A stretch of DNA of 34,613 nt from Burkholderiales bacterium RIFCSPHIGHO2_12_FULL_69_20 (GTDB taxonomy: Bacteria > Pseudomonadota > Gammaproteobacteria > Burkholderiales > Burkholderiaceae_C). The DNA lies in assembly GCA_001770815.1 (NCBI GenBank), contig MESD01000027.1, positions 1-34,613 of the forward strand. Direction: 5' to 3'. Under the pieces are notes generated by a model. It had not been told where the DNA came from. It made no database searches and was given only the letters and a program-made list of their open reading frames with translations. The translations under genes and the position numbers were made by a program. Below are positions 2,931-32,797 of this stretch, in pieces. Position 1 is the stretch's first letter. Each line of letters begins with the position of its first letter.

Positions 2931-2963
2931 TCCGCTGCGATTGGCGGCCGATCAGCGCGGCAT

Positions 2964-3714: not shown

Positions 3715-3742
3715 GGGTGCAACCACCATGCAAGCCCCGTAC

Positions 3743-3764: not shown

Positions 3765-3796
3765 TGCCGGCCGCGCCACGGCGGCATACTGCGCGC

Positions 3797-4435: not shown

Positions 4436-4460
4436 GCGCGCGCCGCTGCGCTGGCGCCGA

Positions 4461-4994: not shown

Positions 4995-5031
4995 GAATCG
5001 TCTCCCGGAATGTGATTCATGCATTGTGGGC

Positions 5032-5053
5032 CGGCACCAAAGACCCGGTGCCG
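5032..5053. repeat. Hairpin in the msrA-ubiD gap
   Basis: CGGCACC (5032-5038) and GGTGCCG (5047-5053) form a perfect 7-bp stem with an 8-nt loop. It is the first of several hairpins between msrA and ubiD and lies 37 bp upstream of the msrA start. Confidence 0.5.
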
Positions 5054-5084
5054 CATGCGCCCGCTGCCGACAAGATGCGCTCGG

Positions 5085-5257
5085 AAACGGGACCCAAAAC
5101 GGGGCCCGAAACGGGGCCCAGAAACACGAACCCCCTCAAGCCTTGCGACCTGAGGGGGTGGGTGGCCGATGGCCACCATGTGGGGATCCGGAGGAATGAA
5201 GTCCGGGGCCCCGTTTCATGCAGAGACTGCACGAAGTTTGATGCCTTCATCGAAGGC
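5085..5257. repeat. Structured repeat block between msrA and ubiD
   Basis: Three tandem 12-bp repeats (5085-5096, 5097-5108, 5109-5120) share the core AAACGGGGCCC, with one base changed in the first. The same unit returns inverted at 5206-5217, a perfect 12-bp complement of 5108-5119. Between these arms lie hairpin A (5130-5138 with 5151-5159, 9 bp) and hairpin B (GGTGGCC gat GGCCACC, 5161-5177). After them come TGCAG aga CTGCA (5219-5231) and GCCTTC atc GAAGGC (5243-5257). No convincing gene covers it. It could be a small repeat element, a structured RNA or a long leader for msrA. I do not recognise it. Confidence 0.6.
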
Positions 5258-5316
5258 AAAGCGAACTTACTGCAACCCCCGCGGCTCGGCAAGCGAAAGT
5301 TGATGCCGCGTGCAGG

Positions 5317-6870
5317 TCAGCGCTTCATCACCAGGTCGAACAGGCCTTGCACCCGTTGCGTCACCTCGGCCGGCATGGTGATCACGCGGCCCCATTCGCG
5401 CGGGGTCTCGCCCGGCCACTTGTTGGTGGCGTCCAGCCCCATCTTGCCGCCCAGGCCGCTGACCGGCGAGGCGAAGTCGAGGTAGTCGATCGGCGTCTGC
5501 GCAACCAGCGTGGTGTCGCGCACCGGGTCCATGCGGGTGGTGATGGCCCAGATCACGTCCTGCCAGTTGCGGATGTCGACGTCGTCGTCGGTGACCACGA
5601 TGAACTTGGTGTACATGAACTGCCGCAAGAAACTCCACAGCCCGAACATCAGCCGCTTGGCATGGCCCGGGTAGGCCTTCTTGATCGAGATGATCGCCAT
5701 GCGGTAGCTGCAGCCCTCGGGTGGCAGGTAGAAGTCGACGATTTCCGGAAACTGCTTCTGCAGGAGGGGCACGAACACCTCGTTGAGCGCCACGCCCAGC
5801 ACGGCCGGCTCATCGGGCGGCTTGCCGGTGTAGGTGGAGTGGTAGACCGGATCGCGCCGATGGGTGAGGCGGTCGATGCGGAACACCGGGAACCAGTCCT
5901 GCTCGTTGTAGTAACCGGTGTGGTCGCCGTAGGGGCCCTCCAACGCGTGCAGGTAGCCGTTGATCTCCTTGACCGGCACGCCGTGGTCGCTGCGCCCGGC
6001 AAAGCCGGCTTCGGCGGTGGGGATATGGCCTTCGAGCACGATCTCGGCGGTGGCCGGCACCTGCAGAAAGCGCCCGGCCTCGCCGACCTCGCAGTCGACC
6101 AGCTCGGTGGCGCTACCACGCAGCAGGCCGGCGAACTGGTATTCCGACAGGCTGTCGGGCACCGGCGTCACCGCGCCCAGCGTGGTGGCCGGGTCGGCGC
6201 CCAAGGCCACTGCCATCGGGAACGGCCGGCCCGGATTGGCGCGGGCAAAGTCGCGGAAATCAAGCGCGCCGCCGCGGTGGGCCAGCCAGCGCATGATCAC
6301 TTCGCGCGGGGCTATCACCTGCTGGCGGTAGATGCCGATGTTCTGGCGCAAGCGCGGCCGCTCTATGGATTGCGGCCCGCGCGTGATCACCAGCCCCCAG
6401 GTGATCAGCGGCCCGGCATCGCCCGGCCAGCAGGTCTGGATCGGCCAGCGCGACAGGTCGACCTCGTCGCCAACCAGCTGCACCTCACGGCAGGGGCCGT
6501 CGCGGCGCCGCACCGGCTTCATGTCCCACAGCGCCTTGGCCATTTGCACCAGCCGGCCGGCGTCCTTCAGGCCCTGCGGTGGCTCGGGCTCCTTCAGGCG
6601 CGCCAGCAGCGTGCCGATCTCGCGCAGCTGCGACACCTCGGCGGCGCCCATGCCCAGCGCCACGCGCCGCGGCGTGCCGAACAGATTGGCCAGCACCGGC
6701 ACCTGGTGGCCGGTGGGCCGCTCGAACCACAGGGCAGGCCCACCAGCACGCAGCACCTGGTCGGCCAGGGCGGTCATCTCGAGTTGGGGCGACACCGCAT
6801 CCGCCACCCGCCGCAGTTCACCCATGCGCTCAAGTTGAGCGGCAAAGTCGCGCAGATCGCGGTATTTCAT
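5317..6870 (-). CDS. ubiD: UbiD decarboxylase (4-hydroxy-3-polyprenylbenzoate decarboxylase)
   Basis: A 517-residue protein matching E. coli UbiD (497) throughout. With prenylated FMN supplied by UbiX (not in the window) it removes the carboxyl group of 4-hydroxy-3-polyprenylbenzoate in ubiquinone synthesis. Clear blocks include [74 protein letters not shown] and [19 protein letters not shown]. An insertion of about 20 residues sits between the EIVLEGHIP and EGPYGDHTG motifs compared with E. coli; I believe this is a common betaproteobacterial variant. Start ATG at 6870 gives the family-typical MKYRDLRDF; no strong ribosome binding site is seen. Confidence 0.95.
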
Positions 6871-6904
6871 GCTTGATTTTGAATTAGAGAAGCGTTTGAT
6901 ATAC

Positions 6905-6934
6905 TTGACTGGTTATTACCAGCCTTCCTAGAAT
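6905..6934 (+). promoter_or_regulatory. Sigma70-like promoter for the lytic transglycosylase gene
   Basis: TTGACT (6905-6910), an 18-bp spacer and TAGAAT (6929-6934) fit a sigma70 promoter. It would give a leader of about 195 nt before the ATG at 7136. The leader begins with AAACCC (6940-6945) and GGGTTT (6956-6961), a 6-bp stem with a 10-nt loop. AGCCTTCC (6921-6928) is also repeated inverted at 6981-6988. No gene was found in 6871-7135. Confidence 0.6.
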
Positions 6935-7135
6935 TCTGAAAACCCGATCAATCAAGGGTTTACCCGCGACCCACCTGTTGGGAAGGCTTCAGGCGCGGAC
7001 TCTCTCTCATCCGCCCACCGAGTGCCGCTGCTTCAGGCTGCGGCCGGTCTGGCGGCAGATTATCGGCCCCGGGTTCGGGCGGTTCCGGCTTCAGCCGTTC
7101 TGCCAGGAAACGATGGCCAACAACTGGGTCTGATC

Positions 7136-8065
7136 ATGTCAGCGATAGCAAATTTGCGCGCTGCGGGCAGCACCTGTGTCGATTCGGCGCGGGTGTTCCT
7201 GCGCGATGTGGGCGCCGGGCTGTTCGAGGTAAGCCACAACTCGCTGGCGCTGCTGGGGCTTTGCGTGGTGGGCGTGGCCCTGTTTGCGGGCGGCCGCGCA
7301 GAGATGCGCACGCTGGTGGAACAGCACGCACTGGGCTGGCTGCAGGCCCGGCAGGAGGCGCGCGATCCGGCGCGCATCAACGTCCAGCCTGAGCCGGAAC
7401 CCGACGCGGTGGCGCGCGCCACCGCAGCCGATCCCAAGGCCCTGCCGCGCCAGCAGGCGGCGGTGGCGCAGTGGCTGTCGCGCCGCTACAAGGTGGCGCC
7501 TGAGCCGGTCAGCCGCCTGGTGCAGGAAGCATGGGCAGTGGGCCATCGCGTGGGCCTGGATCCGACGCTGATCCTCGCCATCATGGCGATCGAGTCCAGC
7601 TTCAATCCGTTTGCACACAGTTCCGCCGGCGCGCAAGGCCTGATGCAGGTGATGACCAAGGTGCACGACGACAAGTACCAGGCTTACGGTGGTGTGCGCG
7701 CCGCATTCGACCCGGTGGCCAATCTGCGGGTGGGCGTGCAGGTGCTCAAGGAATGCATTGCACGCGCCGGCGGACTGGAAGCCGGCCTGCGTTACTACGT
7801 GGGTGCGGCCATCAGCGGCGAGGACGGTGGTTATGTCGGCAAGGTGCTGGCCGAGCAAGGCCACCTGCGGCAAGTGGCCGACGGTCGCCGCGTGGCGGTG
7901 AACGCCAGCAACGCGGCACGATCGCCCGCCCCGGTCATCGTGCAGGCCGTGCGCAGTGCCGAGATTGCTGAAGCTGCCGAGCCGGTGCCCGTGTCGGCGC
8001 CCCTGCCTGCCGCCATCCCCAGTGCGCCGGCAGTGATCGAGGAGCGCGTCGCGATGATGCGCTGA
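7136..8065 (+). CDS. Membrane-anchored SLT-domain lytic transglycosylase
   Basis: A 309-residue protein with one hydrophobic segment near the N-terminus (about residues 34-52, LALLGLCVVGVALFAGG), a linker, then an SLT fold at about residues 120-230. The catalytic Glu lies in IMAIESSFNP and is followed by GAQGLMQVM and a late GLRYYVGA, the usual goose-lysozyme-like motif order. It should cleave murein glycan strands in the periplasm, anchored in the inner membrane. The C-terminal ~70 residues are Ala/Pro/Val-rich and look disordered. A GTG at 7022 would add 38 unconserved residues, so the ATG at 7136 is chosen. Its role in growth, secretion or pilus assembly cannot be assigned. Confidence 0.85.
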   Translation: MSAIANLRAAGSTCVDSARVFLRDVGAGLFEVSHNSLALLGLCVVGVALFAGGRAEMRTLVEQHALGWLQARQEARDPARINVQPEPEPDAVARATAADPKALPRQQAAVAQWLSRRYKVAPEPVSRLVQEAWAVGHRVGLDPTLILAIMAIESSFNPFAHSSAGAQGLMQVMTKVHDDKYQAYGGVRAAFDPVANLRVGVQVLKECIARAGGLEAGLRYYVGAAISGEDGGYVGKVLAEQGHLRQVADGRRVAVNASNAARSPAPVIVQAVRSAEIAEAAEPVPVSAPLPAAIPSAPAVIEERVAMMR

Positions 8066-8089
8066 CGGCGCAGCGGCTGGCGCCCGATC

Positions 8090-8119
8090 TGGGCACTGCC
8101 GCGGTGGCTTCGCTACAAT
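8090..8119 (+). promoter_or_regulatory. Candidate glyA promoter
   Basis: TACAAT (8114-8119) with TGGGCA (8090-8095) 18 bp upstream. The predicted start near 8126 falls just before the first paired base of the riboswitch (8129), which supports the call. The -35 box is poor (4 of 6). Confidence 0.5.
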
Positions 8120-8125
8120 CTGCGG

Positions 8126-8230
8126 GTTTGCGCGACTGGCGATAGGGCCGCACGGCCCGAGGTGGACGACCACCGTGGAGCGCACACCGGCCCGATGAAA
8201 TTCGGCCGATTCAGCCGTTCGCCTGGGCAG
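8126..8230 (+). ncRNA. ZTP (pfl) riboswitch upstream of glyA
   Basis: The leader carries the conserved parts of the ZTP/pfl aptamer in order. P1 is TGCGC (8129-8133) with GCGCA (8180-8184). The conserved CGACTGGCG follows at 8134-8142. A small hairpin GGGCC/GGCCC lies at 8145-8158. The stem GGTGG acga CCACC is at 8161-8174, then GTGGAGCGC, and after a spacer hairpin the conserved CGCCTGGGC at 8220-8228. The class binds ZMP/ZTP (AICAR nucleotides), signals of 10-formyl-tetrahydrofolate shortage, and turns on one-carbon genes; glyA is a known target type. The following 80 nt hold further GC-rich complementary segments before the ATG at 8311, which may form the expression platform. Confidence 0.9.
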
Positions 8231-8310
8231 CCCGAAGCCGGGTGTCGGGTTGCCAGCGTATCCCGGCAATCGGGCACCGACGGGTCTACACCCTCGACAG
8301 GACTGCCCCC

Positions 8311-9558
8311 ATGTTTGACCGCACCCAATCCACCGTTGCCCATGTCGACCCCGAACTGTGGGCCACCATCCAGCTCGAAAACGCGCGCCAGGAGGCGCAC
8401 ATCGAGTTGATCGCCAGCGAGAACTACGCCTCGCCCGCAGTGATGCAGGCCCAGGGCTCACAACTGACCAACAAGTACGCCGAGGGCTACCCCGGCAAGC
8501 GCTACTACGGCGGCTGCGAGTACGTCGACGTGGTCGAGCAACTGGCCATCGACCGCCTGAAGTCCCTGTTCGGCGCCGCCAACGCCAACGTGCAGCCCAA
8601 CTCGGGCTCGCAAGCCAACCAGGCGGTGTTCTTTGGTTTGCTGCAGCCGGGCGACACGATCATGGGCATGAGCCTGGCCGAGGGCGGCCACCTGACCCAC
8701 GGCATGCCGCTGAACATGAGCGGCAAGTGGTTCAAGGTGGTGAGCTACGGGCTGGATGCCAACGAGGCCATCGACTACGACGCGATGGAGCGCCTGGCGC
8801 ACGAGCACCGCCCCAAGCTGATCATCGCCGGCGCATCGGCATATTCGCTGCGCATCGACTTCGAGCGCTTTGCCAAGGTGGCCAAGGCCGTCGGCGCCTA
8901 CTTCATGGTCGACATGGCGCACTACGCCGGCCTGATCGCCGCCGGCGTCTACCCCAACCCGGTGCCGTTTGCCGACGTGGTCACCAGCACCACGCACAAG
9001 ACGCTGCGCGGCCCGCGCGGCGGCCTGATCCTGATGCAGGACCACGTGGCCAAGCAGATCAACAGCGCGATCTTCCCTGGCATCCAGGGCGGCCCGCTGA
9101 TGCACGTGATCGGGGCCAAGGCGGTGGCCTTCAAGGAGGCGCTGGCGCCCGAGTTCAAGGTCTACCAGCAGCAGGTGGTGAAGAACGCCGCGGTGATGGC
9201 CGAGACCCTGGTGCAGCGCGGCCTGCGCATCGTCAGCGGGCGCACCGAGAGCCATGTGATGCTGGTCGACCTGCGCCCCAAGGGCCTGACGGGCAAGGAG
9301 GCCGAAGCCATCCTCGGCTCGGCACACATCACCTGCAACAAGAACGGCATCCCGAACGATCCGCAGAAGCCGATGGTGACCAGCGGCATCCGGCTCGGTT
9401 CACCCGCCATGACCACCCGCGGCTTCGCTGAAGACCAGGCGCGCCAGACCGCGCACCTGATTGCCGATGTACTGGACAAGCCGAACGAGGCCGACACCAT
9501 CGCGGCGGTGCGTGCCAAGGTGGCCGCGCTGACGCGCGACTTCCCGGTCTACCGCTGA
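8311..9558 (+). CDS. glyA: Serine hydroxymethyltransferase
   Basis: A 415-residue PLP enzyme converting serine and tetrahydrofolate to glycine and 5,10-methylene-tetrahydrofolate in the cytoplasm. [47 protein letters not shown] and the PLP lysine K230 in [14 protein letters not shown] are all present. Length is normal. The start at 8311 ([17 protein letters not shown]) is chosen because the upstream open frame overlaps the riboswitch. It heads a run with nrdR, the pilin genes and ribD, although the 172-bp nrdR-to-pilin gap with hairpins may end its transcript. Confidence 0.98.
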
Positions 9559-17570: not shown

Positions 17571-18365
17571 TCAATGGTCGCCCTGCAGGCCCTTGATCAG
17601 CACCACGGCGAGCAAGCCGGCACCGATCCAGCCAATCTGCGCCAGCGTCGATCGCATCGGCAGCCGGCGCTGCAACTGCGGCAGCAGATCGGCCACGGCC
17701 ACGTAGATGAAGCTGCTGGAGGCCGCCACCAGCAGGTACGGGAACAGCGCATCCCATGGGCCCACGATGAAGTAGCCCAACACGCCACCCACCACCGAGG
17801 CCAGGCCCGACAGCGCGTTGTACAGCAGCGCCTTGGCCCGGCTGAAGCCGGCGTTGAGCAGCACGATGTAGTCGCCCACCTCCTGCGGTATCTCGTGCGC
17901 GATCACGGCGGCTGCCGTGACCACGCCCAGTTGCACGTCGGCCAGGAAGGCCGCGGCGATGATGATGCCGTCGCAGAAGTTGTGGATGCTGTCGCCCACC
18001 AGCACGCTCCAGCCACCGCGGCCGGCCTGTTCGGCATCGAAGCCATGGCCGTGGTGGTGGTGCGGGTCGTCGCCTTCGTGGTGGTGGCCGTGCCGGTACA
18101 ACTCGGCCTTCTCGAGCAGGAAGAAGAACAGCAGTCCGCCCAGCAGCGTCATGAACAGGTGATGCGGATCGACCCCGCCCTCGAAGGCCTCGGGCAGCAC
18201 ATGCAGCAGCGCGGTGCCCAGCAGCACGCCCACCGACAGGCTGACCAGGTGCTTGACGATGCGCCCCAGCAGCGCCAGCGTCAGCGACGCGGCGATCAGC
18301 ACCGACAGCACGCCGCCCGCGAAGGTGGCCAGCACGATATAGAGCAGGGTCATCGATCCATTCAT
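17571..18365 (-). CDS. ZIP-family metal (zinc/iron) transporter
   Basis: A 264-residue membrane protein with about eight hydrophobic segments and the ZIP layout. A His-rich cytoplasmic loop (HGHHHEGDDPHHHHGHG, about residues 92-108) is followed by the metal-site helices DSIHNFCDGIIIAAAF and IAHEIPQEVGDY. It should bring Zn2+ or related divalent metals into the cytoplasm. Two starts are possible: ATG at 18365 (used here) or ATG at 18353, which has a weak GGATCG upstream and begins the conserved MTLLYIVLATFAGG. A strong terminator ends only 3 bp before the first of these, so transcription of this gene needs explaining. It converges with the usp gene. Confidence 0.9.
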   Translation of the reverse strand: MNGSMTLLYIVLATFAGGVLSVLIAASLTLALLGRIVKHLVSLSVGVLLGTALLHVLPEAFEGGVDPHHLFMTLLGGLLFFFLLEKAELYRHGHHHEGDDPHHHHGHGFDAEQAGRGGWSVLVGDSIHNFCDGIIIAAAFLADVQLGVVTAAAVIAHEIPQEVGDYIVLLNAGFSRAKALLYNALSGLASVVGGVLGYFIVGPWDALFPYLLVAASSSFIYVAVADLLPQLQRRLPMRSTLAQIGWIGAGLLAVVLIKGLQGDH

Positions 18366-18368
18366 CCC

Positions 18369-18396
18369 AAAAAAAGAAACGCGCCGGGATGGCGCG
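18369..18396 (-). terminator. Strong rho-independent terminator directly before the ZIP gene
   Basis: On the minus strand CGCGCC, loop ATCCC, GGCGCG (18380-18396) is followed by TTTCTTTTTTT (18369-18379). This would end the dienelactone hydrolase transcript. Because it lies 3-15 bp before the ZIP start codon, it could also act as an attenuator of ZIP expression. Confidence 0.85.
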
Positions 18397-18427
18397 GTTG
18401 CGATATGGCGCCGGCCGGCGCGGGGCG

Positions 18428-19303
18428 TCAGGCCACGCCGTGCACCTTGAACCACGCCAGGCAGCGCTTCCAGCCGTCGTCGGCAGCGTCCTTGCGGTAG
18501 CTGGGCCGGTAGTCGGCATGGAAGGCATGCGGCGCGTCCGGGTACACGACGAACTCGGATCGCTTGGCCGCGGCCGACCCTGCCGCCAACGCCACCTTCA
18601 TCTTATCGACCGTGTCAAGCGGGATGCCGCTGTCCTGCCCGCCATACAGGCCCAGCACCGGGCCGTTGAGCTTGCTCGCCAGATCAACCGGGTGCGCCGG
18701 ATTGAGCGGTGAGGCGGCGCCCACCAGCCGGCCGTACCAGGCCACACCGGCCTTCACCGCCGGGTTGTGCGCGGCATACAGCCAGGTGATGCGCCCGCCC
18801 CAGCAGAAGCCGGTGATCGCCGTCTTGCCGGTGTCGGCGCCCTGCCCCTTGGCCCAGGCCACGGTGGCGTCCAGATCACCCATCACCTGCGCGTCGGGCA
18901 CCTTGGAGACCACCTCGGCGATCAGCTTGGCGATTTCGCCATAAGCGCCCGCATCACCCTGGCGCACGAACAGCTCGGGCGCAATGGCGAAGTAACCCGC
19001 CTTGGCGAAGCGCCGGGCCACGTCGGCGATGTGCTCGTGCACGCCGAAGATCTCGCTGATCACCAGCACCACCGGCGCATTGGCCTTGCCCGCCGGCGCG
19101 GCGCGGTAGGCGGGCAACTTGAAGTCGCCCACCGGGATGGTGACTTCGCCGGCCACCAGGCCGGCGGTGTCGGTCTTGATGACGGTCTGCGCCATCACCG
19201 GCAGCACGGCCGCGGCAAAGCCCGTACCCACCGAGGTGCGCACGAAGTCGCGCCGGCTGAAATCGCGGCTGGGAGTCAGGCTGTCGAGGTCTTCACGCAA
19301 CAT
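18428..19303 (-). CDS. Tat-exported dienelactone hydrolase family protein
   Basis: A 291-residue alpha/beta hydrolase. A twin-arginine signal [20 protein letters not shown] lies at residues 16-35, followed by MAQ as a likely cleavage zone, so the protein is expected in the periplasm. The DLH catalytic triad is visible: C167 in GFCWGG, D224 in GGQDSGIP and H259 in DAPHAFH. Family members hydrolyse dienelactone-like esters, but a Tat-exported one is probably not part of chlorocatechol breakdown, and the real substrate is unknown. An AGGAG ribosome binding site sets the start at 19303. It diverges from ppx across 105 bp. Confidence 0.88.
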
Positions 19304-21465: not shown

Positions 21466-23568
21466 TCATGCAGGCGACATGTAGCGCGCGGCCAGCGCGG
21501 CCTGGGCACTGACGCCACTTTCGGCCACACGCTGGTAGCTGCCGTCGCTGGCCTGCACCCAGGCGTCGCGCTGGTCGTGCAGGTAGGGCACCAGGCATTC
21601 GTCGATCACGCGCTGGCGCAGCCGGGCATCGCGCACCGGCCAGGCGATCTCGATGCGGCGGAACATGTTGCGGCCCATCCAGTCGGCACTGGACAGGTAC
21701 AGCGCCTCGTCCGCGTCACTCTCGCCCCAGCGGAAGTACATCGCCCGCGTGTGCTCCAGGAAGCGGCCCACCACCGAGCGCACGCGGATGCGGTCGGTCA
21801 CCCCCGGGATGCCCGGCGGCAGCATGCAGGCGCCGCGCACGATCAGATCGACTTCAGCGCCGGCCTGCGCGGCCTGCACCAGCGCCTGGATCATCGCCGG
21901 CTCGGTCAGCGAATTGAACTTGGCGACGATGCGCGCCGGCCGCCCGGCGCGGGCGGCATCGGCCACCTGCGTGATGTGCGCCACCAGCCGGCGGTGCAGC
22001 GCAAACGGCGCGGTCAGCAGATGGCGCGGCGTGCGCACCTTGGTCAGGCTGGCCAGCTGGTGGAACACCGCATCGGCGTCGGCCGTCAGCAGCGCATCGG
22101 CGGTGAGCATGCCCACGTCGGTGTAGAGCCGCGCGGTGCTGGGGTTGTAGTTGCCGGTGGACAGGTGGGCGTAACGGCGCAGCACCGTCTGGCCGCGGCG
22201 GGTGGTCTCGCGCCGGGTCACCAGCAGCAGCTTGGCATGGGTCTTGAAGCCGACGATGCCGTAGACCACCTGCGCGCCCACCGCCTCCAGCCGCTCGGCC
22301 CAGTTGATGTTGGCCTCTTCGTCGAAGCGCGCCTTCAACTCGACCACCACGCAGACGTCCTTGCCGCGGCGCGCCGCCTCGATCAGCAGCTCCATCAGCA
22401 CCGACTGGCTGCCGGTGCGGTAGATGGTCTGCTTGATCGCCAGCACCGCCGGGTCGTGTACCGCCTCGCGCAGGAACTCGACCACCACGTCGAAGCTCTG
22501 GAACGGGTGGTGCAGCAGCAGATCGCCCTGGCGCAGCCGCGCCAGGATCGAGCTGCCACGCGGCAGGTCGTGCTCGGGCCAGCGCGCGGCCAGCGGCGCA
22601 AAGCGCAGCGCCGGGGCATCGGCCTGGTCGATCAGCTGGTTCAGCCGCACCAGGTTGACCGGGCCGTTGACCAGGTACAGCGCCGCCTTGGGCAGGTCGA
22701 ACTGGTCGAGCAGCAATCGCCACAGCGGCTCGGGGCAGCTGGCCACCACCTCCAGCCGGATCGCCTCGCCGAAGTGGCGCGTGGTCAGGCCCGAACGCAG
22801 CGCCTGGCGCAGGTTGGCCACGTCGTCCTCGTCGACTTCCAGATCCGAATCCCGGGTGACGCGGAACTGCGAGAACGACTCGACCGGGCGGCCACCGAAC
22901 AGCTCCTGCAGGTGGGCGCGGATCACGCTGGTCAGCAGCACGAAGGCCTGGGTGCCGGGCGGGCACACCGCCGCCGGCAGCCGGATCACCCGCGGCAGCG
23001 CGCGTGGCACCTTGACGATGGCGATCGAGTTCTCGCGCCCGAAAGCATCCTGCCCGCCGAGCTTGACGATGAAGTTCAGGCTCTTGTTGGCCACCAGCGG
23101 AAAGGGGTGCGCCGGGTCCAGCCCCACCGGCAGCAGCAGCGGCTGCACCTCGCGCTCGAAGAACCGCGCCACCCATTCGCGCTGCGCTTGATTGCGCTCG
23201 GCGTGGTTGATGATGACGATGCCGTGCTGCTGCAGCGCGGGCATCACCACGTCGTTGAAGACGGCGTACTTCTGGTCGATCAGCGCATGCGCCTCGGCGG
23301 CCACCGCGCGCAGGTCGTCGCGCTGCGGGTCGCCATCGGCCGGCGCCTCGTCCTTGGCCGCGCGCATCGCGCCGATGGCATCGGCAAAGCGCACCTCGAA
23401 GAACTCGTCCATGTTGGACGACACGATGGTGATGTAGCGCAGCCGCTCGAGCAGCGGCACATCGGCGCGGCGCGCCTGGGCCAGCACGCGGCGGTTGAAT
23501 TCGAGGATCGCGCGCTCGCGATTGAGCAGCGCAGGCATGTCGCCCGGCTGGGCTGGCACAGAAGTCAT
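21466..23568 (-). CDS. ppk: Polyphosphate kinase 1
   Basis: A 700-residue PPK1 that builds polyphosphate from ATP. The N domain has ERAILEFNRRVL and SNMDEFFEVRF; VANKSLNFIV and LLHHPFQSFDVVVEFL follow. The phosphorylated histidine lies in GFKTHAKLLLV, and HLSTGNYNPSTARLYTD follows. Length is normal. The start may be the ATG at 23538 (MPALLNRERAIL), ten codons in: the -10 box of the Pho-type promoter puts the transcript start at about 23569, which would leave the first ATG without a leader. The sixA gene follows by 11 bp. Confidence 0.96.
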   Translation of the reverse strand: MTSVPAQPGDMPALLNRERAILEFNRRVLAQARRADVPLLERLRYITIVSSNMDEFFEVRFADAIGAMRAAKDEAPADGDPQRDDLRAVAAEAHALIDQKYAVFNDVVMPALQQHGIVIINHAERNQAQREWVARFFEREVQPLLLPVGLDPAHPFPLVANKSLNFIVKLGGQDAFGRENSIAIVKVPRALPRVIRLPAAVCPPGTQAFVLLTSVIRAHLQELFGGRPVESFSQFRVTRDSDLEVDEDDVANLRQALRSGLTTRHFGEAIRLEVVASCPEPLWRLLLDQFDLPKAALYLVNGPVNLVRLNQLIDQADAPALRFAPLAARWPEHDLPRGSSILARLRQGDLLLHHPFQSFDVVVEFLREAVHDPAVLAIKQTIYRTGSQSVLMELLIEAARRGKDVCVVVELKARFDEEANINWAERLEAVGAQVVYGIVGFKTHAKLLLVTRRETTRRGQTVLRRYAHLSTGNYNPSTARLYTDVGMLTADALLTADADAVFHQLASLTKVRTPRHLLTAPFALHRRLVAHITQVADAARAGRPARIVAKFNSLTEPAMIQALVQAAQAGAEVDLIVRGACMLPPGIPGVTDRIRVRSVVGRFLEHTRAMYFRWGESDADEALYLSSADWMGRNMFRRIEIAWPVRDARLRQRVIDECLVPYLHDQRDAWVQASDGSYQRVAESGVSAQAALAARYMSPA

Positions 23569-24566: not shown

Positions 24567-27191
24567 TCAATGCATGGTCGCGGCGAAGTCGACCACCTGG
24601 GCCCAGTGCGAGGGCATGTCGTGCTCGGCGCTGGTCGGCAGGTGGCGCTCGGCGTCGGCCTGGGCCATGGCACTGGCCATCTCGGGCGTGAGCGGGCGCG
24701 CCAGCAGGTAGCCCTGGCCGAACTCGCAGCCCAGCGCGCGCAATTGCGCCAGCTGGGCCGGTGTTTCGATGCCTTCGGCGATCACTGTCTTGCCCAGCGC
24801 CTGGCCCAGCGTGATCACCGCGCGCACGACCTCGGTGTCCTTGCTGTCGTGGTTCAGGCCTTCCAACCGCTGCACGAACGAGCGGTCGATCTTCAGGCTG
24901 GTGATCGGCAGCGTCGACAAATAGGCCAGCGACGAGTAGCCGGTGCCGAAGTCGTCCACGCTCAGGCCCACGCCGATCTCGCGCAGCTGGCCCATCACGT
25001 CCAGCGCGCTGTCGAGGCGGTGCATCAGCGTGCTCTCGGTGATCTCCAGCGTCAGCTGGTTCGGCTCGAGGCCGTTGCTCAGCAGCGCGGTGGCCACCTG
25101 CTGCACGAAGCTGGCGCGGCACATGTCGGTGCCCGAGACGTTGACATGCACCCGCGGCTTGCGCTGCGTGGGCGACAACTGCTGGAAGGCCTTGAGCTGC
25201 GCGCAGGCACTGCCCAGCACCCAGGCGGTGAGCGCGCCGATCAGCGCCGAATCCTCGGCGATGGGCACGAAGGTGGCCGGCGGCACCGGGCCCAGCTCGG
25301 GGTGGTTCCAGCGCACCAGCGCCTCGAAGCTGTCGATGCGCCCGGTCTCCAGCGCGTAGATTGGCTGGAAGGCCAGCGACAGCTGCGCATGCTCGATGGC
25401 GCGGCGCAGGTCGCGCTCCAGGTTCACCTGCGCGGCCAGTTGCGCGCGCAGGCTGGCGTCGAACAGCGCGATGCGGGCGCGCCCCGCGGCCTTGGCGCGG
25501 TACATCGCGATGTCGGCGTCGCGCAGCACGTCGCCCGGTGTCTCGTAGCCCACGCTGCTGAAGGTGATGCCGATGCTGGCGCTGCTGTTGACCTCGGTGC
25601 CCGCCAGCTGGTAGGGCTCGGCCAGCGCACGCTGCAGCCGCTCAGCCATCGCCAGCACGTCGTCCTCGTGGGCCAGGTTCTCGGCCAGGATGGCGAACTC
25701 GTCGCCGCCCAGCCGGCCCACCGTGTCGGCCGGCCGCACCTGCGCGCTGATGCGTTGCGCCACCATCGTCAGGAACTGGTCGCCGGCGCTGTGGCCCAGC
25801 GTGTCGTTGATCAGCTTGAAGCGGTCGAAGTCCAGGTACATCACCGCAAAGCGTTGGCGTGCATCAGTGCGGCAGCGCTCGATGGCCTGGGCCAGGCAGG
25901 CGCCAAAGCGGATGCGGTTGGCCAGCGAGGTGAGGCTGTCGTGGTAGGCAATGTGCTGCAGTTGCGCCTCGGCCTCGCGCCGGGCGCTGATGTCCTGCGC
26001 CTGCAGGATCAGGCAGGGCGCGCTGGCGTCGCGGTCGCTGAAGTGGCCGCTGTGCAGCGCCACGTGCACCACCTCGCCGCCGCTGCGCAGGCAGCGCAGC
26101 TCCACCGTGGTGTCGGTGCCGTCGCGGGCCAGCAGCGCCAGCCACGGCCGTTGCAGCAGCGGCATGTCGTCGGGGTGCACGAAGTCCTTGAAGTCGCGGC
26201 CGATCAGCGGGCCCTCGGCGCTGCCCAGCAGCGCACACAGCGCCGGGTTGGCCTGCAGCACCTGGCCGGTGGTCGATACCAGCGCCATGCCGATGGCGGC
26301 ATGCGAGAAGGCGGCGTGAAAGCGCTGCTCGCTGTCGCGCAGCTCCTGCAAGTGGCGCGCCGACTGGGCGGCCTCGCGCTCGGCGGCGTTCAGCCGCAGG
26401 CTGTGCGCCTGTTCTTCCGATTCACGCTGGCGGAAGTGGTAATGCAGCATCACCAGCAGCAGGATGATGATGGGCACCGCGCCGGCCATCACACCCACGC
26501 CGGTGGCCTTGAAGGCCAGGTACAGCAGGCCGGCGATCAGCGCGCTGACGGCGTAGGTGGTGCCCACCCAGCCAAAGCTGGACAGGAAGGCCACCAGGCG
26601 GAACCGCTCGCTGCGCTTGAGGTGCATCACCATCGTGATCATCAGCGTGTTGAACATGAAGTGGCCGATGGCGAAGCCCATCGCCAGCAGCAGCACCATC
26701 GCCTCGCCGTAGGTGCCCTGCATGCTCAGTGCGTCCCGGGCCGCCTGGAAGGCCGAGCCCATCAACGTCATCGACAGCGCGGCGGTGCAGGGGCTGATCA
26801 GCCGGCTGGTCCAGCGCTTGGAGGTGCGCGCCGAGCCGACGAAGGCCTCGCCCGCGGCGGCCAGCGCGGCCGCAGGCGGGCCCTGCATCAGCAGCAGCAG
26901 CATGATGAACACCTCACCGGCGGCGAACGAGTTCTTCGAGCCGGGGATGCGCACCGGAAACAGCCCGGCCAGCATTGCCACCGCGCAGCCGAACAGCACC
27001 TGGAACTGGATGTCGAAGGGCAGCCGCCACAGGCTGGCCAGCGCATGCATCAGCACCCCACCGCCCAGCAGCAGCAACGTCCACCAGTAGGCGGTGGCCT
27101 TGCCGTTGTAGTCGGGCATCAGCGCGGCATGCAGCCGATGCCACCAGTTGCGGCGTTGCAGAGGGGGTGTCTCGGTGGGCGGTGTCAACAT
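24567..27191 (-). CDS. Membrane PAS-GGDEF-EAL cyclic di-GMP enzyme
   Basis: An 874-residue protein. Residues ~35-250 hold about seven hydrophobic segments, a sensor type I cannot name. A coiled region (255-288) and a PAS domain (about 288-402) follow. The GGDEF domain is intact (LGGDEFAIL, 495-499) with a product-inhibition site R486-P-A-D489. The EAL domain is intact (E623-A-L) with HVNVSG, LEITES, DDFGTGYSSL, LKIDRSFV, AEGIETP and GQGYL. Both activities could exist. It sits in the inner membrane with the enzyme parts in the cytoplasm. A zinc-ribbon/PilZ-like gene follows 2 nt after its stop. The upstream gap 27192-27434 shows no gene. Confidence 0.93.
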   Translation of the reverse strand: MLTPPTETPPLQRRNWWHRLHAALMPDYNGKATAYWWTLLLLGGGVLMHALASLWRLPFDIQFQVLFGCAVAMLAGLFPVRIPGSKNSFAAGEVFIMLLLLMQGPPAAALAAAGEAFVGSARTSKRWTSRLISPCTAALSMTLMGSAFQAARDALSMQGTYGEAMVLLLAMGFAIGHFMFNTLMITMVMHLKRSERFRLVAFLSSFGWVGTTYAVSALIAGLLYLAFKATGVGVMAGAVPIIILLLVMLHYHFRQRESEEQAHSLRLNAAEREAAQSARHLQELRDSEQRFHAAFSHAAIGMALVSTTGQVLQANPALCALLGSAEGPLIGRDFKDFVHPDDMPLLQRPWLALLARDGTDTTVELRCLRSGGEVVHVALHSGHFSDRDASAPCLILQAQDISARREAEAQLQHIAYHDSLTSLANRIRFGACLAQAIERCRTDARQRFAVMYLDFDRFKLINDTLGHSAGDQFLTMVAQRISAQVRPADTVGRLGGDEFAILAENLAHEDDVLAMAERLQRALAEPYQLAGTEVNSSASIGITFSSVGYETPGDVLRDADIAMYRAKAAGRARIALFDASLRAQLAAQVNLERDLRRAIEHAQLSLAFQPIYALETGRIDSFEALVRWNHPELGPVPPATFVPIAEDSALIGALTAWVLGSACAQLKAFQQLSPTQRKPRVHVNVSGTDMCRASFVQQVATALLSNGLEPNQLTLEITESTLMHRLDSALDVMGQLREIGVGLSVDDFGTGYSSLAYLSTLPITSLKIDRSFVQRLEGLNHDSKDTEVVRAVITLGQALGKTVIAEGIETPAQLAQLRALGCEFGQGYLLARPLTPEMASAMAQADAERHLPTSAEHDMPSHWAQVVDFAATMH

Positions 27192-27434: not shown

Positions 27435-29678
27435 TCAAGGCTCGCCCGCCGGATCGGCCAGCGTGGCGGCACGCGTCTGGCCGCTGCTGCTCTCGCTGAG
27501 CACCACGCCTTCGCTCAACACCACACCCTCGCTCAGCACCACGCCTTCACTGAGCACCACGCCCTCGCTCAGCACCACGCCCTCGCTGAGCACCACGCCT
27601 TCGCTCAGCACCACGCCTTCGCTGAGCACCACGCCCTCGCTCAGCACCACGCCGCTGCCGCTGGCCAACCACAAGGCCATCGTGCTGCTGGGCAGGAACA
27701 CGCCGGTCTGGCCGATCTTGGAGCTGGTGCCGGCCAGCGAGGTGGCCAGCTTCACGCCGCTGGTCAGCAGCCCGCCGTTGGGCGCCACCGCTTCGGCAAA
27801 GGTGCGTGGCACGGTGTTGGCCGCCACGCCGTTGCTCAGCGGCCAGTAGGTGACCGTGTGGCGCAGCGCGGTATTGCCGCCCCAGCTGGTGCGCGGGTCG
27901 TAGATCGGCTGCCACTTCTTGAACAAGTCGTCGCCGCTGACGATCTGGCGGCCACCCACGGTGACGATGCGCGACCAGTTGAAGGTTGCGCCGTTGATCG
28001 TGGAGGTGGGAAAAGGCAGGAAGGTGGCGTTGATCGGGGCGCCGGCCACCAGGGTGCCGGCCTGCAGCTTGCTGGCGGTGTCGGTGCGCATCGCCTTGGC
28101 CAGGCGCACCGCGCCGTCGATGTTGAGCATGCCTGCGCCCTGATCCACCAGGCTGGCGTTGGCCAGCGGCTGCGCGGTGTACTGCAGGATGGCCTTGATC
28201 ATCGGCCCGGTCAGGCCGGGGTTGGCCTGCAGCAGCAGCGCCACCGCACCGCTGACCACCGGCGCCGACACCGAGGTGCCGCTCAGCATCATCAGCGTGC
28301 GGCCGTAGACCTGGTAGCTCTCCAAGCCACTCAGCAGCGACGGGTTGGCCGCGGCCAGGTTGTTCCACACGCCGGCCGGGTTGGCCACCGAGGTGGCACC
28401 GGCGCTGAAGATGCGGTTGCCCGGGGCCACCAGATCGGGCTTGATCAGGTTGTCGACATGGCGCAGGCCGTTGCTGTCGGTCAGCGCGCCGCGCGAGGGC
28501 CCACGCGAGCTGAAACCGTTGATCGTGTCGTTGCCGCGTGCCAGCGTCAGGTTCATGTGCGACGAGCCGACGGTGATCACCGAGGGGTCGTGCCCGGGTG
28601 AGCCGATGCTGCCGTAGGTGGTGCTGCCGCTGACCTGGCCGAAGTTGCCGGCCGCGGCCACCACGGTGATGCCGGTGGCGGCGGCGGCGCGCACGGCACG
28701 CGCCAGCGGATCGGTGCGCCAGGATTCGGTCGACCCGGCGGCCAGACTCAGGTTCATCACGCGGATGTTGTACTGCCGCGCGTTGTAGATCACCCAGTCG
28801 ATGCCGGCCAGCACGTCGGCCATGCTGCCCGAGCCGTCGGCGCCCAGCACGCGCACGTCGATGATCGAGGCACCCGGCGCCACGCCGGCGGTATTGAGCA
28901 GCGCGGTGGCGTTGCGGCGGCCGGCGGCCACCGCCGCCACGTGCGTGCCATGACCGTAGGCGTCGGGAACCGGCGACGAACTCCAGTTGATCGAGCTCTC
29001 GAATGCCTGCCGCTCGGCGCTGCCCGGCGCCATGGCCGATGCCGCCAGTGCGCTGCTGGCCTTGCCCACCAGGCTGACCTGGCGCACCACGCGGCTGACG
29101 CCGTTGGCATTGACCAGGTGCTGGTGCTGGGCCATCACGCCCGAGTCGAGCACCGCGATGCCCACGCCGCTGCCATCCAGCCCGGTGTAGCTGGTGGTGC
29201 TGGTGGTGGTGCGCACATTGCTGGACGACGCGCCGGTGACGTTCTCCAGCGTGCTGGCGGCGCGTCGCGTGGTGCGGTTGGGCGAGATCGACTCGACGTC
29301 GCTGCGCTCGTCGATCACGCGCATGGCCCGGGTGGGCAGCGTCACCGACAGCGCCTGCACCGACGAGAAGCGCGCGTGCACCACACCACCCAGCCGCTCG
29401 ATCTGAGCGCGCAGCGCGCGCATCTCGGGATCGGTGGAATTGCTGACGATCACCGCATCCACCAAACGCTGGCCGCCGCGGCGGCGCACCCAGCGGTGGT
29501 TGGGCGCCATCGGCGCCGCCACAGCGATCTCCAGGTCCTTGGCCACCTTGCGGTGCTTGCCCTGCCCGCCGGCCTGCACCCCCAGCGTGGCGGCCAGCGC
29601 CAGCGAGGACAGCAGCAAGACGAACACAGCGCGCATGCGGCGCTCGATCAACACGATAAATGACGTCAGAAAACCCAT
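27435..29678 (-). CDS. Secreted S8 (subtilisin-like) serine protease with C-terminal hexapeptide repeats
   Basis: A 747-residue subtilase. An AAGGA ribosome binding site sets the start at 29678. A signal segment (MRAVFVLLLSSLALAATLGV, residues 15-34) is followed by an inhibitor-like prodomain to about residue 140. The catalytic triad is D178 (AVLDSGV), H243 (YGHGTHVA) and S469 (LSGTSVSAP), with N345 (AAGNFG) as oxyanion residue. After the protease fold come ~180 residues, then nine exact copies of GVVLSE (676-729) and a short polar tail. It should be exported; no cell-wall anchor or PEP-CTERM is seen. The target is unknown. It lies between two cyclic di-GMP loci. Confidence 0.92.
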   Translation of the reverse strand: MGFLTSFIVLIERRMRAVFVLLLSSLALAATLGVQAGGQGKHRKVAKDLEIAVAAPMAPNHRWVRRRGGQRLVDAVIVSNSTDPEMRALRAQIERLGGVVHARFSSVQALSVTLPTRAMRVIDERSDVESISPNRTTRRAASTLENVTGASSSNVRTTTSTTSYTGLDGSGVGIAVLDSGVMAQHQHLVNANGVSRVVRQVSLVGKASSALAASAMAPGSAERQAFESSINWSSSPVPDAYGHGTHVAAVAAGRRNATALLNTAGVAPGASIIDVRVLGADGSGSMADVLAGIDWVIYNARQYNIRVMNLSLAAGSTESWRTDPLARAVRAAAATGITVVAAAGNFGQVSGSTTYGSIGSPGHDPSVITVGSSHMNLTLARGNDTINGFSSRGPSRGALTDSNGLRHVDNLIKPDLVAPGNRIFSAGATSVANPAGVWNNLAAANPSLLSGLESYQVYGRTLMMLSGTSVSAPVVSGAVALLLQANPGLTGPMIKAILQYTAQPLANASLVDQGAGMLNIDGAVRLAKAMRTDTASKLQAGTLVAGAPINATFLPFPTSTINGATFNWSRIVTVGGRQIVSGDDLFKKWQPIYDPRTSWGGNTALRHTVTYWPLSNGVAANTVPRTFAEAVAPNGGLLTSGVKLATSLAGTSSKIGQTGVFLPSSTMALWLASGSGVVLSEGVVLSEGVVLSEGVVLSEGVVLSEGVVLSEGVVLSEGVVLSEGVVLSESSSGQTRAATLADPAGEP
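27492..27653 (-). repeat. 9 x 18-bp tandem repeat in the protease gene
   Basis: Nine head-to-tail 18-bp units (162 bp) each encode GVVLSE on the minus strand. Units differ at a few third-codon positions (for example C/T and CTC/CTG), yet the peptide is identical in all nine, so selection or recent conversion keeps the protein sequence. Confidence 0.95.
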
Positions 29679-30089
29679 GACATGGTCCTTTTGATTCGAC
29701 AAGAAGGTGTTACAGCCACCCCCTTGAACAGATGGTCGCGATGATCGTGACAAACCGTGTCGCGCGGTGAATTCGGCAAAAACCAGCGTGCGTTTCTGGG
29801 CGTGAAAAGATCACGACACCGGGCTGCTTTCAGACCGCTCGGCGCGCCGAACACGAACTTGAGCACCAGCTTCGTGACGGGCTGCACATCCTGCCGCGGG
29901 ATTCGGGCGCCGCCGACCGGGAGGCCATCGATGCCAGGGCGCGGCACGCGGCTGGCGTGGGGCGCTTGCGCATCCGCTCAAGCCTGCCGGCCAAAGCGCC
30001 GATAGCAAAGCCCAGGGACCGCATGGCGCACGGGCCCGCTGGCACGCGGGCCTCAACCGCCACGGGCACCCCCACCGGAGATCACGTCC
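29679..30089. other. Divergent intergenic region, no gene seen
   Basis: This 411-bp gap lies between the S8 protease (minus) and the binding-protein gene (plus). Base composition is less extreme than in the genes for its first 170 bp. A weak minus-strand promoter pair, TTGTCA and TGTTCA 17 bp apart (about 29731-29759), and the small inverted repeat CGTGA/TCACG (about 29801-29815) are present. It probably holds promoters for both sides. Open frames here look like chance. Confidence 0.5.
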
Positions 30090-30941
30090 ATGACACCCAC
30101 CCCCCTGTTGCGGCCGCTGCCCGGTGCGGGCCTGCGCCGGCGTGTTGCGCTGGCCCTGCCGGTGGCCGCCTGGCTGGGCGGCCTGTGCACCACCAGCCGG
30201 GCCGCCGGCCCGGTGCTGCTGGGCGGCACCGGCTCCGGCGTGGCGGTGCTGCGCCGCGTGCTGGACGGCCAGGCCGCGCCGTTGTCGGTGGTGCCCAACC
30301 TGGGCAGTGGCGGCGGCCTCAAGGCCCTGGCCGCTGGCCAGCTGGACCTGGCGATCGCCTCACGCCGGCCGAACGCGGCCGAGCGCGCCGCCGGCCTGGT
30401 CGAGCGGGAGGTGTTCCGCTCGCCGCTGGTGTGGGCGGTGAACCCCGACGTGGCCGTGCGCCAGGCCACCCGGGCCGAGTTGGTGGCGCTGTACCAAGGC
30501 CACCGCACCACCTGGTCCGATGGCCGGCCGGTTCGGCTGGTGCTGCGGCCCGAATCCGACATCGACACGCTGTTGCTGCGTGCGCTGGGGCCAGAGATGG
30601 ACGCAGCCATCAGCGCCGCCAGTCGCCGCCCGGGCATGACGGTGGCGTTGACCGACGACGAAGTCGCGCTCGACATCGGCCGCATCCCGGGTGCGCTGGG
30701 CACCGTCACGCTGGGCCTGGTGCTGGCCCAGGATCACACGCTGCCACTGCTGACGGTGAGTGACCTGCCGGCCAGCGACGCCGCGCTGGCCGCTGGACGC
30801 TACCCGCTGGTCAAGCGCTTCTACCTGGTGACGCGCGCCCGCAGCACGCCCGAGGCGGCCGCCGTGCTGCAGGCGGTGGCCTCGCGGGGCACGGCCGAGC
30901 GCCTGGCCCGCCTGGGCTGCCAGGCGGTGGGCACGGCATGA
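30090..30941 (+). CDS. PstS-like periplasmic substrate-binding protein
   Basis: A 283-residue protein with a GGAG ribosome binding site. A signal peptide (residues 14-39, ending TTSRAA) is followed by the binding-protein opening PVLLGGTGSGVAVLRRVLDG and NLGSGGGLKALAAGQLDLAIASR, as in phosphate-type PBP proteins. No transporter permease or ATPase gene is nearby. Its stop overlaps by ATGA the start of a GGDEF-EAL membrane protein, so it likely serves as a periplasmic sensor subunit and not for uptake. The bound ligand is not known; phosphate or another oxyanion is a guess from the family. Confidence 0.85.
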   Translation: MTPTPLLRPLPGAGLRRRVALALPVAAWLGGLCTTSRAAGPVLLGGTGSGVAVLRRVLDGQAAPLSVVPNLGSGGGLKALAAGQLDLAIASRRPNAAERAAGLVEREVFRSPLVWAVNPDVAVRQATRAELVALYQGHRTTWSDGRPVRLVLRPESDIDTLLLRALGPEMDAAISAASRRPGMTVALTDDEVALDIGRIPGALGTVTLGLVLAQDHTLPLLTVSDLPASDAALAAGRYPLVKRFYLVTRARSTPEAAAVLQAVASRGTAERLARLGCQAVGTA

Positions 30942-32797
30942 CACTGCTGGGACGACGTCGGTCTGCGGCGGGCTGGCTGGAGCGCCTGGCCTGGGTGCTG
31001 GTGACGCTGGTCGCGGTCGGCCTGCCGGCGGCGCTGTTCACGCTCAACATGAGCTACCAGCGCGGCGCGCTGGCCAGCATCGCCGCCGTGCGTGGCGACA
31101 CCGTGACCCAGCGCATCAGCATCAATCCGCAATTCTGGCGCTTCGAGGAGCTGCGGCTGCTCGAACTGCTCAAGCGCAGCGTGCATCCCGACGACCTGGG
31201 CGACCGCTTGGCGATCCTGGACACCGATGGCCAGTTGGTGGCCGAGAACCGGCCCATCGCCGACCTCGCCTGGCCGGTGCTGGCGCAGCAGGTGCCGCTG
31301 CACGACGCCGGGCGGGTGGTGGCCCAGCTGAGCGTGCAACGCTCGATCCGCACCCCGCTGATGCACCTGGCCATGCTGATGGCCGCCTCCATCGCCACCG
31401 GCCTGCTGGTGCTGACCTACCTGCGCCGGCTGCCGCTGCGCGCGCTGCGCCAGGCCGAGGCCGAGCTGCAACACAAGGCCTATCACGACGCGCTGACCGG
31501 GCTCTACAACCGCGACGCCTTCCGCCAGCTGCTGGGCCGTGCGGTGGTCCGCGCCGCCCAGACGCCAGGCCAGCTGGCCGTGCTGTTCATCGACCTGGAC
31601 CGCTTCAAGGCCATCAACGACACGCTGGGCCACGATGCCGGCGACGAAGCGCTGTGCGGCGTGGCCCGCCAACTGCGCGCCGGCGTGCGCGCGGGCGACG
31701 TGGTGGCGCGGCTGTCGGGCGACGAGTTCGCGGTGCTGATCGAGGGCCTGGCCGACAGCCACCAGGCGGCGGCGGCGGCCGATGCGCTGCTGGCGCGCTT
31801 CGATGCACCGTTCGACCTCGGCGGCCGCCCCTGGCATTTGAGCTGCAGCATCGGGCTGTCGATCTTTCCGCAGCATGCGCAAGACCCGGACAGGTTGCTG
31901 GCCCATGCCGATACCGCGATGCTGCATGCCAAGAGCAGCGGCCGCAGCTCGCAGCGCGTCTACAGCGACGAGATGCAGGAAAGCGTGGCCAGCCGCGTGC
32001 ACATCGAGGACGACCTGCGCGGCGCGCTGGGCCGGGGCGAGTTCAGGCTGCATTACCAGCCGCTGGTCGACCTGGCCAGTGGCCGCGTCGAGGGTGCCGA
32101 GGCGCTGCTGCGCTGGCAGCATCCGCAGCGCGGGCTGGTGCCGCCGGTGGAGTTCATCCCGATCCTGGAGGACCTGGGCCTGATCCACGCGGTGGGCGAG
32201 TGGGTGCTGAACGAGGCCTGTCGGCAGATGGGGCGCTGGCGGGCCACGGGCAGCAGCGTGCGGTCGGTGTCGGTCAACGTCTCGGCGCTGCAGTTCGGCC
32301 GCGGCGCCGGGTTTGTCGACCAGGTACGCCAGGTGCTGCGCGCCACCGCGCTGCCGCCGGCACTGCTGCAGCTGGAACTGACCGAAGGCATCCTGATGTC
32401 CGACAGCGAGCGCAGCGTGGCGGTGCTGGACGACCTGCGCCTGCTGGGCGTGTCGCTGGCGATCGACGACTTCGGCACCGGCTACTCGTCGCTGTCCTAC
32501 CTGCGCCGCTTTCCGGTGTCGACCTTGAAGGTGGACCGCTCCTTCGTGCGCGACATGTGCACCGACCCCAAGGACGCCAGCATCGTCAGGGCCGTGGTGC
32601 AGTTGGCGCACAGCCTGGGGCTGACGGTGGTGGCCGAGGGCATCGAGACGCCGGCCCAGCTGGCCGAGTTGCGGGCGCTGGGCTGTGACAGCGGCCAGGG
32701 CTACCTGCTGGGGCGTCCGGTGGCGGCAGCGGCCTTCATGGTCGATGCGGCGGTGCTGACCGACGCGAGCGTCGCCGCCGCGCTTCAGCCGGCTTGA
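30938..32797 (+). CDS. GGDEF-EAL cyclic di-GMP enzyme with periplasmic loop
   Basis: A 619-residue membrane protein. Two hydrophobic segments (about 15-36 and 142-162) enclose a ~105-residue periplasmic loop. The GGDEF motif is SGDEF (260-264), a variant active in many enzymes, with an inhibition site R251-A-G-D254. The EAL domain has E388-A-L, VNVSALQF, ELTEG, DDFGTGYSSL, LKVDRSFV, AEGIETP and GQGYLLG, so hydrolysis of cyclic di-GMP looks possible. It is coupled by ATGA overlap to a PstS-like binding protein. The likely model is that the binding protein docks on the loop and switches activity, as NspS does with MbaA in Vibrio. That is inference. Confidence 0.92.
   Translation: MTLLGRRRSAAGWLERLAWVLVTLVAVGLPAALFTLNMSYQRGALASIAAVRGDTVTQRISINPQFWRFEELRLLELLKRSVHPDDLGDRLAILDTDGQLVAENRPIADLAWPVLAQQVPLHDAGRVVAQLSVQRSIRTPLMHLAMLMAASIATGLLVLTYLRRLPLRALRQAEAELQHKAYHDALTGLYNRDAFRQLLGRAVVRAAQTPGQLAVLFIDLDRFKAINDTLGHDAGDEALCGVARQLRAGVRAGDVVARLSGDEFAVLIEGLADSHQAAAAADALLARFDAPFDLGGRPWHLSCSIGLSIFPQHAQDPDRLLAHADTAMLHAKSSGRSSQRVYSDEMQESVASRVHIEDDLRGALGRGEFRLHYQPLVDLASGRVEGAEALLRWQHPQRGLVPPVEFIPILEDLGLIHAVGEWVLNEACRQMGRWRATGSSVRSVSVNVSALQFGRGAGFVDQVRQVLRATALPPALLQLELTEGILMSDSERSVAVLDDLRLLGVSLAIDDFGTGYSSLSYLRRFPVSTLKVDRSFVRDMCTDPKDASIVRAVVQLAHSLGLTVVAEGIETPAQLAELRALGCDSGQGYLLGRPVAAAAFMVDAAVLTDASVAAALQPA

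Follow-up and report, generated by a model that had tools for sequence, protein, structure and literature searches.

To our knowledge, few enzymes of cyclic di-GMP (c-di-GMP) turnover are controlled by a solute-binding protein (SBP). According to one review, work on c-di-GMP networks had covered a single Pfam family of the periplasmic-binding-protein clan, SBP_bac_3, which was studied there in built-in form (PMC8846402). In the NspS-MbaA system of Vibrio cholerae and Sinorhizobium meliloti, an SBP gene overlaps or abuts the gene for a receptor with two transmembrane segments and GGDEF and EAL domains (PMC9993111, PMC8967002), and MbaA, which carries an SGDEF motif, both makes and degrades c-di-GMP (PMC8967002). 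Here, we analyse a pair of genes with the same layout in a 34,613-nucleotide stretch of contig MESD01000027.1 from Burkholderiales bacterium RIFCSPHIGHO2_12_FULL_69_20 (the window). The first gene (30090..30941, + strand) encodes a PstS-fold periplasmic SBP of 283 amino acids; the second (30938..32797, +) encodes a protein of 619 amino acids with two transmembrane segments and SGDEF-type GGDEF and EAL domains. The stop codon of the SBP gene overlaps the start of the receptor gene in the sequence ATGA (30938..30941, +); the open reading frames (ORFs) and the overlap are as originally predicted from the letters of the window.

We propose that the two proteins form a dedicated two-protein periplasmic sensor, in which the SBP would dock on the sensor of the receptor to shift its c-di-GMP output; we put the probability of this at about 0.78. 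By analogy, it would most likely work as NspS-MbaA does with unrelated parts, the SBP being of the PstS type and the sensor small, PDC/PAS-like and without HAMP. The proposal is carried by conserved adjacency. All 36 strong SBP matches (35 from three genome samples, the window's own included, and one from Alginatibacterium, locus L020) have behind them, on the same strand, a receptor that carries the same periplasmic sensor of about 100 residues. Two profiles were used, A1 from seven SBPs and A2 from seven regions of transmembrane segment, loop and transmembrane segment, both taken from the window pair and six relatives. The A1 seeds had been chosen as SBPs with the sensor next door, and two SBPs without it (L016, L017) had been left out; the non-seed matches are thus counted separately, and among these the receptor follows in 29 of 29. 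The pairing is real and beyond chance. It bears out the predicted dedication of the SBP to its receptor in an NspS-MbaA-like layout; conservation in relatives had been named beforehand as a check, and the refuting outcome, adjacency not conserved, was not found.

The samples agree with each other. In the family sample (399 genomes), A1 matched in 29 genomes and A2 in 19; each of the 14 A1 matches of at least 237 bits has an A2 match directly behind it on the same strand, and the 18 matches at or below about 137 bits all lack the sensor behind them. In the class sample (369 genomes; A1 in 34, A2 in 8), the sensor lies behind all six strong matches (the own one and five new ones) and behind none of the 32 weak ones. 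Besides the own match, the phylum sample (165 genomes; A1 in 38) has 16 strong ones (at least 162 bits; one cut by N), all with a sensor receptor behind them, three of these receptors being recognised only with a later start allowed; four of its 25 weak matches were inspected (L079-L082), with the sensor in none. Weaker matches with the sensor behind them thus number 0 of 50 in the family and class samples. Because the strong matches all have a sensor receptor behind them and the weaker ones have none, the SBP belongs to a receptor-dedicated clade. Spacing is tight as well: measured to the nearest receptor start (ATG preferred), eight pairs overlap (six of them by -4), 23 lie 0-20 nt apart and five more than 20 nt, so that in 31 of 36 the receptor start overlaps the SBP stop or lies within 20 nt of it.

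The window SBP as sole query matched 10 of 120 genomes, its own included. In five of the nine others and also in Alginatibacterium, the next gene holds a region homologous to the window receptor's stretch of transmembrane segment, loop and transmembrane segment; in the remaining four there are hybrid kinases with a different sensor (G017, G022), a GGDEF-EAL protein with a different sensor (G071) and a weak match of no clear meaning (G081). A single-sequence scan of genome contigs found one relative only. A plasmid search with the window SBP gave no match, and one with the SBP of L012 gave 17 records, at less than 60% identity. As to natural fusions of SBP and receptor, four weak matches in long frames (L059-L062) showed neither a sensor match nor a Pfam receptor output domain; L060 (1987-3693) joins a PstS-like SBP domain to an OmpA domain.

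The pair had been predicted to be a c-di-GMP system, and this was right for part of the clade and too narrow for the whole. By Pfam, 13 of the 36 receptors have c-di-GMP outputs, as GGDEF-EAL, GGDEF alone or PAS/GAF-GGDEF-EAL (the window, L011, L012, L020, L022, L023, L025, L027 and L042-L046). The other 23 are hybrid histidine kinases (L013-L015, L026, L028-L030 and L063-L078), so the system is not restricted to c-di-GMP; the conserved unit is the input pair of SBP and sensor, not the c-di-GMP output. In a quick SBP tree of 34 full-length clade members and 14 others, whose outgroup does not lie on one side of a branch and from which we claim no exact sister of the window SBP, the 34 form a clade (SH-like approximate likelihood-ratio test 99), separate both from the PstC-linked SBPs and from the other SBPs linked to receptors. 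Outputs changed between kinase and c-di-GMP type three times on the best tree, and well-supported branches force only one of these changes. In the c-di-GMP receptors (n=13), the distances between SBPs correlate with those between sensors at 0.46 vs 0.26 for output domains; in the kinases (n=21), the values are 0.76 vs 0.57. L030 and L078 were left out of tree and correlations. The higher SBP-sensor correlation is as expected if SBP and sensor interact.

Several points weigh against a dedicated sensor pair. Shared descent also contributes to the distance correlations. The window SBP sits on a long branch (1.78) and departs from the clade consensus at E214, R216 and P228, which are Q, H and A here. 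In the family sample, six of 20 places with a sensor-like region have no clade SBP before it, and in the class sample two of eight, so some such sensors may act alone. In addition, the genome searches score only part of the candidates, so that an absent sensor match may be a miss.

The receptor of the window has the parts that such a switch would require (all coordinates on the + strand). By hydropathy, TM1 spans residues 14-39 (30977..31054) and TM2 residues 140-162 (31355..31423); the two transmembrane segments and both domains are as predicted, and the loop between the segments is 100 residues rather than about 105. Two marginal hydropathy segments at residues 595-616 fall at the end of the EAL domain. 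The loop (residues 40-139, 31055..31354) is assigned as a periplasmic PDC/PAS-like sensor domain from an AlphaFold2 (AF2) model, the Foldseek fold class and its conservation in relatives. Besides two short helices and four strands, the model (predicted local distance difference test, pLDDT, 91.2) shows a long helix for TM1, and its TM2 helix reaches the GGDEF domain without a break. Foldseek returned PDC/PAS-like periplasmic domains among its matches (the LapD ortholog CdgS9, 4u64, and WalK), none at E 1e-3 or better, which we take as suggesting a fold class only; a PDB sequence search with the sensor profile gave nothing useful. Behind TM2, a signalling helix (31424..31477) continues directly into GGDEF, the AF2 helix covering residues 138-180 and the Pfam domain starting at 181. 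No HAMP or PAS domain was found in this receptor (Pfam, E 1e-3). The GGDEF domain (residues 181-337, 31478..31948; E 6.5e-46) carries SGDEF at 31715-31729 and, five residues ahead of it, an I-site-like RAGD motif at 31688-31699. The EAL domain (residues 358-594, 32009..32719; E 9.6e-77) has all motifs searched for (EALLR, VNVS, IDDFG, LKVDRSFV and GQGY). This reading of catalytic motifs is relied on for the window receptor only. Since MbaA has SGDEF and both activities, SGDEF is compatible with synthesis, and by this analogy it is plausible that the window receptor both synthesises and degrades c-di-GMP.

The SBP is of the PstS type by fold. It matches PBP_like_2 (PF12849; E 2e-19), its sole Pfam match at E 1e-3, with no match to the PotD/polyamine family, and it scores 43.8 bits against the NCBIfam PstS model TIGR02136, far under the cut-off of 206.6. 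Its AF2 model is a confident PstS fold (pLDDT 91.3), and the best Foldseek matches are PstS-type structures (4q8r, template-modelling score 0.79; 4gd5, 0.78; by target length). A probable signal peptide (residues 1-38, 30090..30203, +; cleavage at ...TSRA/AG) was read by eye; it is only weakly hydrophobic, since the hydropathy script gave no segment above threshold in the SBP.

The pocket, compared in 34 of the 36 clade SBPs (L030 and L078, truncated by a contig end or N, were omitted) by alignment and fold rather than in a ligand-bound structure, points away from inorganic phosphate. In phosphate-bound 4gd5 the loop reads R-E-D-G-S-G-T, and we take the E. coli PstS loop to have the same spacing, its Ser-Gly-Thr and the Thr or Ser at position 48 presumably being the contact residues. 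In the clade the loop reads R153-x-x-x-D157-x-D159, with R153 in 34/34, D157 in 29/34 (Asp or Glu in 32/34) and D159 in 32/34; relative to 4gd5, two acids are gained and three hydroxyls lost. Asp157-x-Asp159 (30558..30566, +) thus replaces the phosphate loop. PstC-linked SBPs have K, R and T at the three loop positions (5/5 each). Position 48 is Gly in 34/34 clade members vs Ser or Thr in PstC-linked SBPs, and Asp189 (30654..30656, +) is invariant in the clade (34/34) and Asn in 5/5 PstC-linked SBPs. Arg92 of an SR motif (30363..30365, +) is present in 33/34 and also in 5/5 PstC-linked SBPs; Arg149 is kept in 33/34. As Asp157 occurs in six of nine other receptor-linked SBPs as well (with Ser at 159 in seven of the nine), it is not by itself distinctive of the clade.

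We weigh three other explanations. First, the SBP may have lost ligand binding and become a constitutive part of the receptor, with a structural or chaperone-like role, so that the state of the envelope and not a solute would be sensed. The altered phosphate-contact positions and the lack of a nameable ligand would fit, whereas the charged residues kept at or near the pocket (Arg153, Asp189, Arg92, Arg149 and Asp159) look more like changed specificity than a dead site, and we regard such a loss as unlikely. Second, the SBP could bind phosphate like PstS and report it to c-di-GMP, as PstS reports to the chemoreceptor CtpL (PMC4926252); phosphate or another oxyanion had been suggested as a possible ligand. 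For this speak the PstS fold, the top 42 Foldseek chains, all annotated as phosphate-binding or putative phosphate-binding proteins, the Arg92 shared with PstC-linked SBPs and a polyphosphate kinase gene in the window. Against it stand the loop positions, which are Ser and Thr in PstS and mostly Asp in the clade, the Gly at position 48, and a separate PstS gene that adjoins a permease gene elsewhere in the genome. Because the phosphate loop is mostly Asp and its hydroxyls are lost, inorganic phosphate appears an unlikely ligand, and a phosphate-sensing pair is quite improbable; the ligand is possibly another one, which may be positively charged. Third, the SBP might work for a transporter whose genes lie elsewhere, its place before the receptor only coordinating expression. 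This is very hard to credit: more distant PstS-like relatives do precede BPD_transp_1 permease genes at nine loci (L038, L039, L053-L057, L081 and L082), whereas no ABC transporter domain was found in 26 scanned window ORFs and 36/36 clade members precede this receptor type, whose output is a kinase, a cyclase or a cyclase-phosphodiesterase.

In the two-protein sensor that we favour, the SBP would be exported to the periplasm and bind a small ligand, probably not inorganic phosphate; in one of its states it would dock on the PDC/PAS-like periplasmic domain of the receptor, the sensor presumably being a dimer. Docking would move TM2 together with the helix that continues it, and this movement may shift the receptor between c-di-GMP synthesis (SGDEF) and degradation (EAL). 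If the switch runs as in NspS-MbaA, docking would tip the balance towards synthesis. A wider proposal, which we advance tentatively and hold to be somewhat short of an even chance, is that the PstS scaffold was rebuilt, its phosphate loop into a conserved Asp-x-Asp and with Asp189 added, to serve receptors only and to sense a class of ligand not known for PstS proteins (e.g. a cationic or zwitterionic metabolite). On this reading, the same input module would have been combined repeatedly with histidine-kinase and with c-di-GMP outputs throughout Pseudomonadota.

Outside the clade, PstS-like SBPs keep varied company. The neighbouring genes of 19 weaker matches were read, with Pfam assignments. 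Seven of these precede BPD_transp_1 permease genes, as do L081 and L082 of the phylum sample. Nine precede receptors of other types, namely hybrid histidine kinases (L016, L017), a histidine kinase (L051), dCache-HAMP-PAS-GGDEF-EAL (L049), dCache-GGDEF (L036), chemoreceptors (L050, L052) and HAMP-GAF-GGDEF-EAL proteins (L018, L041), and three (L037, L040, L058) fall into neither group. L080 precedes a dCache hybrid histidine kinase; in the HAMP protein that L079 precedes, no output was recognised. The tree places L018 and L041 with PstC-linked SBPs, away from the other seven receptor-linked ones, and PstS-like proteins thus seem to have been recruited as receptor partners more than once. The L018 (3980-7933) and L041 (952-4860) loci form a second PstS-like/c-di-GMP pairing with a different sensor; the loci with dCache receptors lie at 4893-8631 (L049, GGDEF-EAL) and 4805-7365 (L036, GGDEF), and those with chemoreceptors at 2280-5250 (L050) and 2673-5683 (L052). 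At L035 (3703-7130), a binding-protein-like gene without a Pfam match overlaps a CHASE5-PAS-GGDEF-EAL gene by 4 nt.

The clade SBP was found in none of 20 congeners, 14 of them at least 90% complete; one congener (G017) has the other, receptor-linked SBP type. The sensor was found in none of five congeners of the family sample, where the own genome did match, and sensor profile A4 had no match in 10 congeners, a set that held no genome known to match. Within the family, SBP and sensor are present in other genera; beyond it, they occur in further families of the class and in other parts of the phylum. This patchy spread fits gain and loss of the two as a unit. Genome G200 has a second receptor with this sensor (L024, 4192-7241), which has no clade SBP and, as judged by eye, has a divergently oriented TctC-like SBP gene.

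Around the pair, a divergent subtilase (Peptidase_S8) gene (27435-29753) lies upstream, and downstream are a gene for a HAD hydrolase, in convergent orientation, and one for a ribulose-phosphate epimerase (Pfam); because of these flanks, the pair looks like a stand-alone bicistron. The prediction that no ABC transporter genes lie around holds in the 26 ORFs scanned with Pfam, which include the pair, are part of the window ORFs and probably contain some that are not genes. No pstCAB gene is among them, and neither flanking gene is one. A ZIP zinc transporter gene (17574-18455) lies 12 kb from the pair. The canonical PstS of the genome (409 bits) is on another contig (C31) and is followed by a BPD_transp_1 permease gene. 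The polyphosphate kinase gene (21466-23568, -) lies about 6.5 kb from the SBP gene and does not share an operon with it. A second membrane protein with PAS, GGDEF and EAL domains is encoded 3 kb upstream of the pair (24567-27191, -), and the whole genome has 15 EAL domains above cut-off. The subtilase has eight tandem SEGVVL repeats near its C-terminus (27498-27641, -).

A conserved and easily recognised SBP-sensor module with varied outputs offers a direct route to the ligand, with 36 pairs to choose from, and kinase and c-di-GMP versions of the same input can be compared. The module also indicates that the label 'phosphate ABC transporter substrate-binding protein' can hide receptor subunits which probably neither transport nor bind phosphate. 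In searches of the literature we saw no account that pairs a PstS-like SBP with a receptor of this type, although we do not claim its absence from print.

Compared with known systems, the pair is closest in layout to NspS-MbaA, where nearby genes are likewise unrelated to the signal and the V. cholerae receptor has the same SGDEF motif (PMC9993111, PMC8967002). It differs in that NspS is PotD-like and belongs to polyamine sensing, in that the S. meliloti receptor has a periplasmic part of about 233 residues and a HAMP domain (PMC9993111), against a loop of 100 residues with no HAMP found here, and in that relatives of the window pair carry kinase outputs. In ScrB-ScrC of Vibrio parahaemolyticus, one operon encodes a dual-function GGDEF-EAL enzyme and the periplasmic binding protein that controls it, as is predicted here, but that operon includes the signal-making scrA (PMC10269520), whereas the neighbours in the window are the subtilase and HAD-hydrolase genes, with no scrA. 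In Pseudomonas aeruginosa, a PstS-family protein stimulates the membrane receptor CtpL, and a PstS-type SBP would likewise act on a membrane receptor here; that PstS, however, is the transporter's own, is encoded beside pst genes, binds inorganic phosphate and acts on a chemoreceptor (PMC4926252). With PstS of PstSCAB, the window SBP shares the fold (AF2, Foldseek) and not the TIGR02136 score, the Ser-Gly-Thr loop, the residue at position 48 (Gly48 here) or adjacent pstCAB genes. LapD is a degenerate c-di-GMP receptor; the window receptor resembles LapD and CdgS9 in its PDC/PAS-like periplasmic fold, a weak structural match (4u64, Foldseek template-modelling score 0.54 by target length, E 7e-3), and differs from LapD in that both GGDEF and EAL motifs are present. 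In the conserved pairing of SBP and receptor genes, 36/36 overall and 29/29 outside the seeds, it is like SBP-dependent receptors generally.

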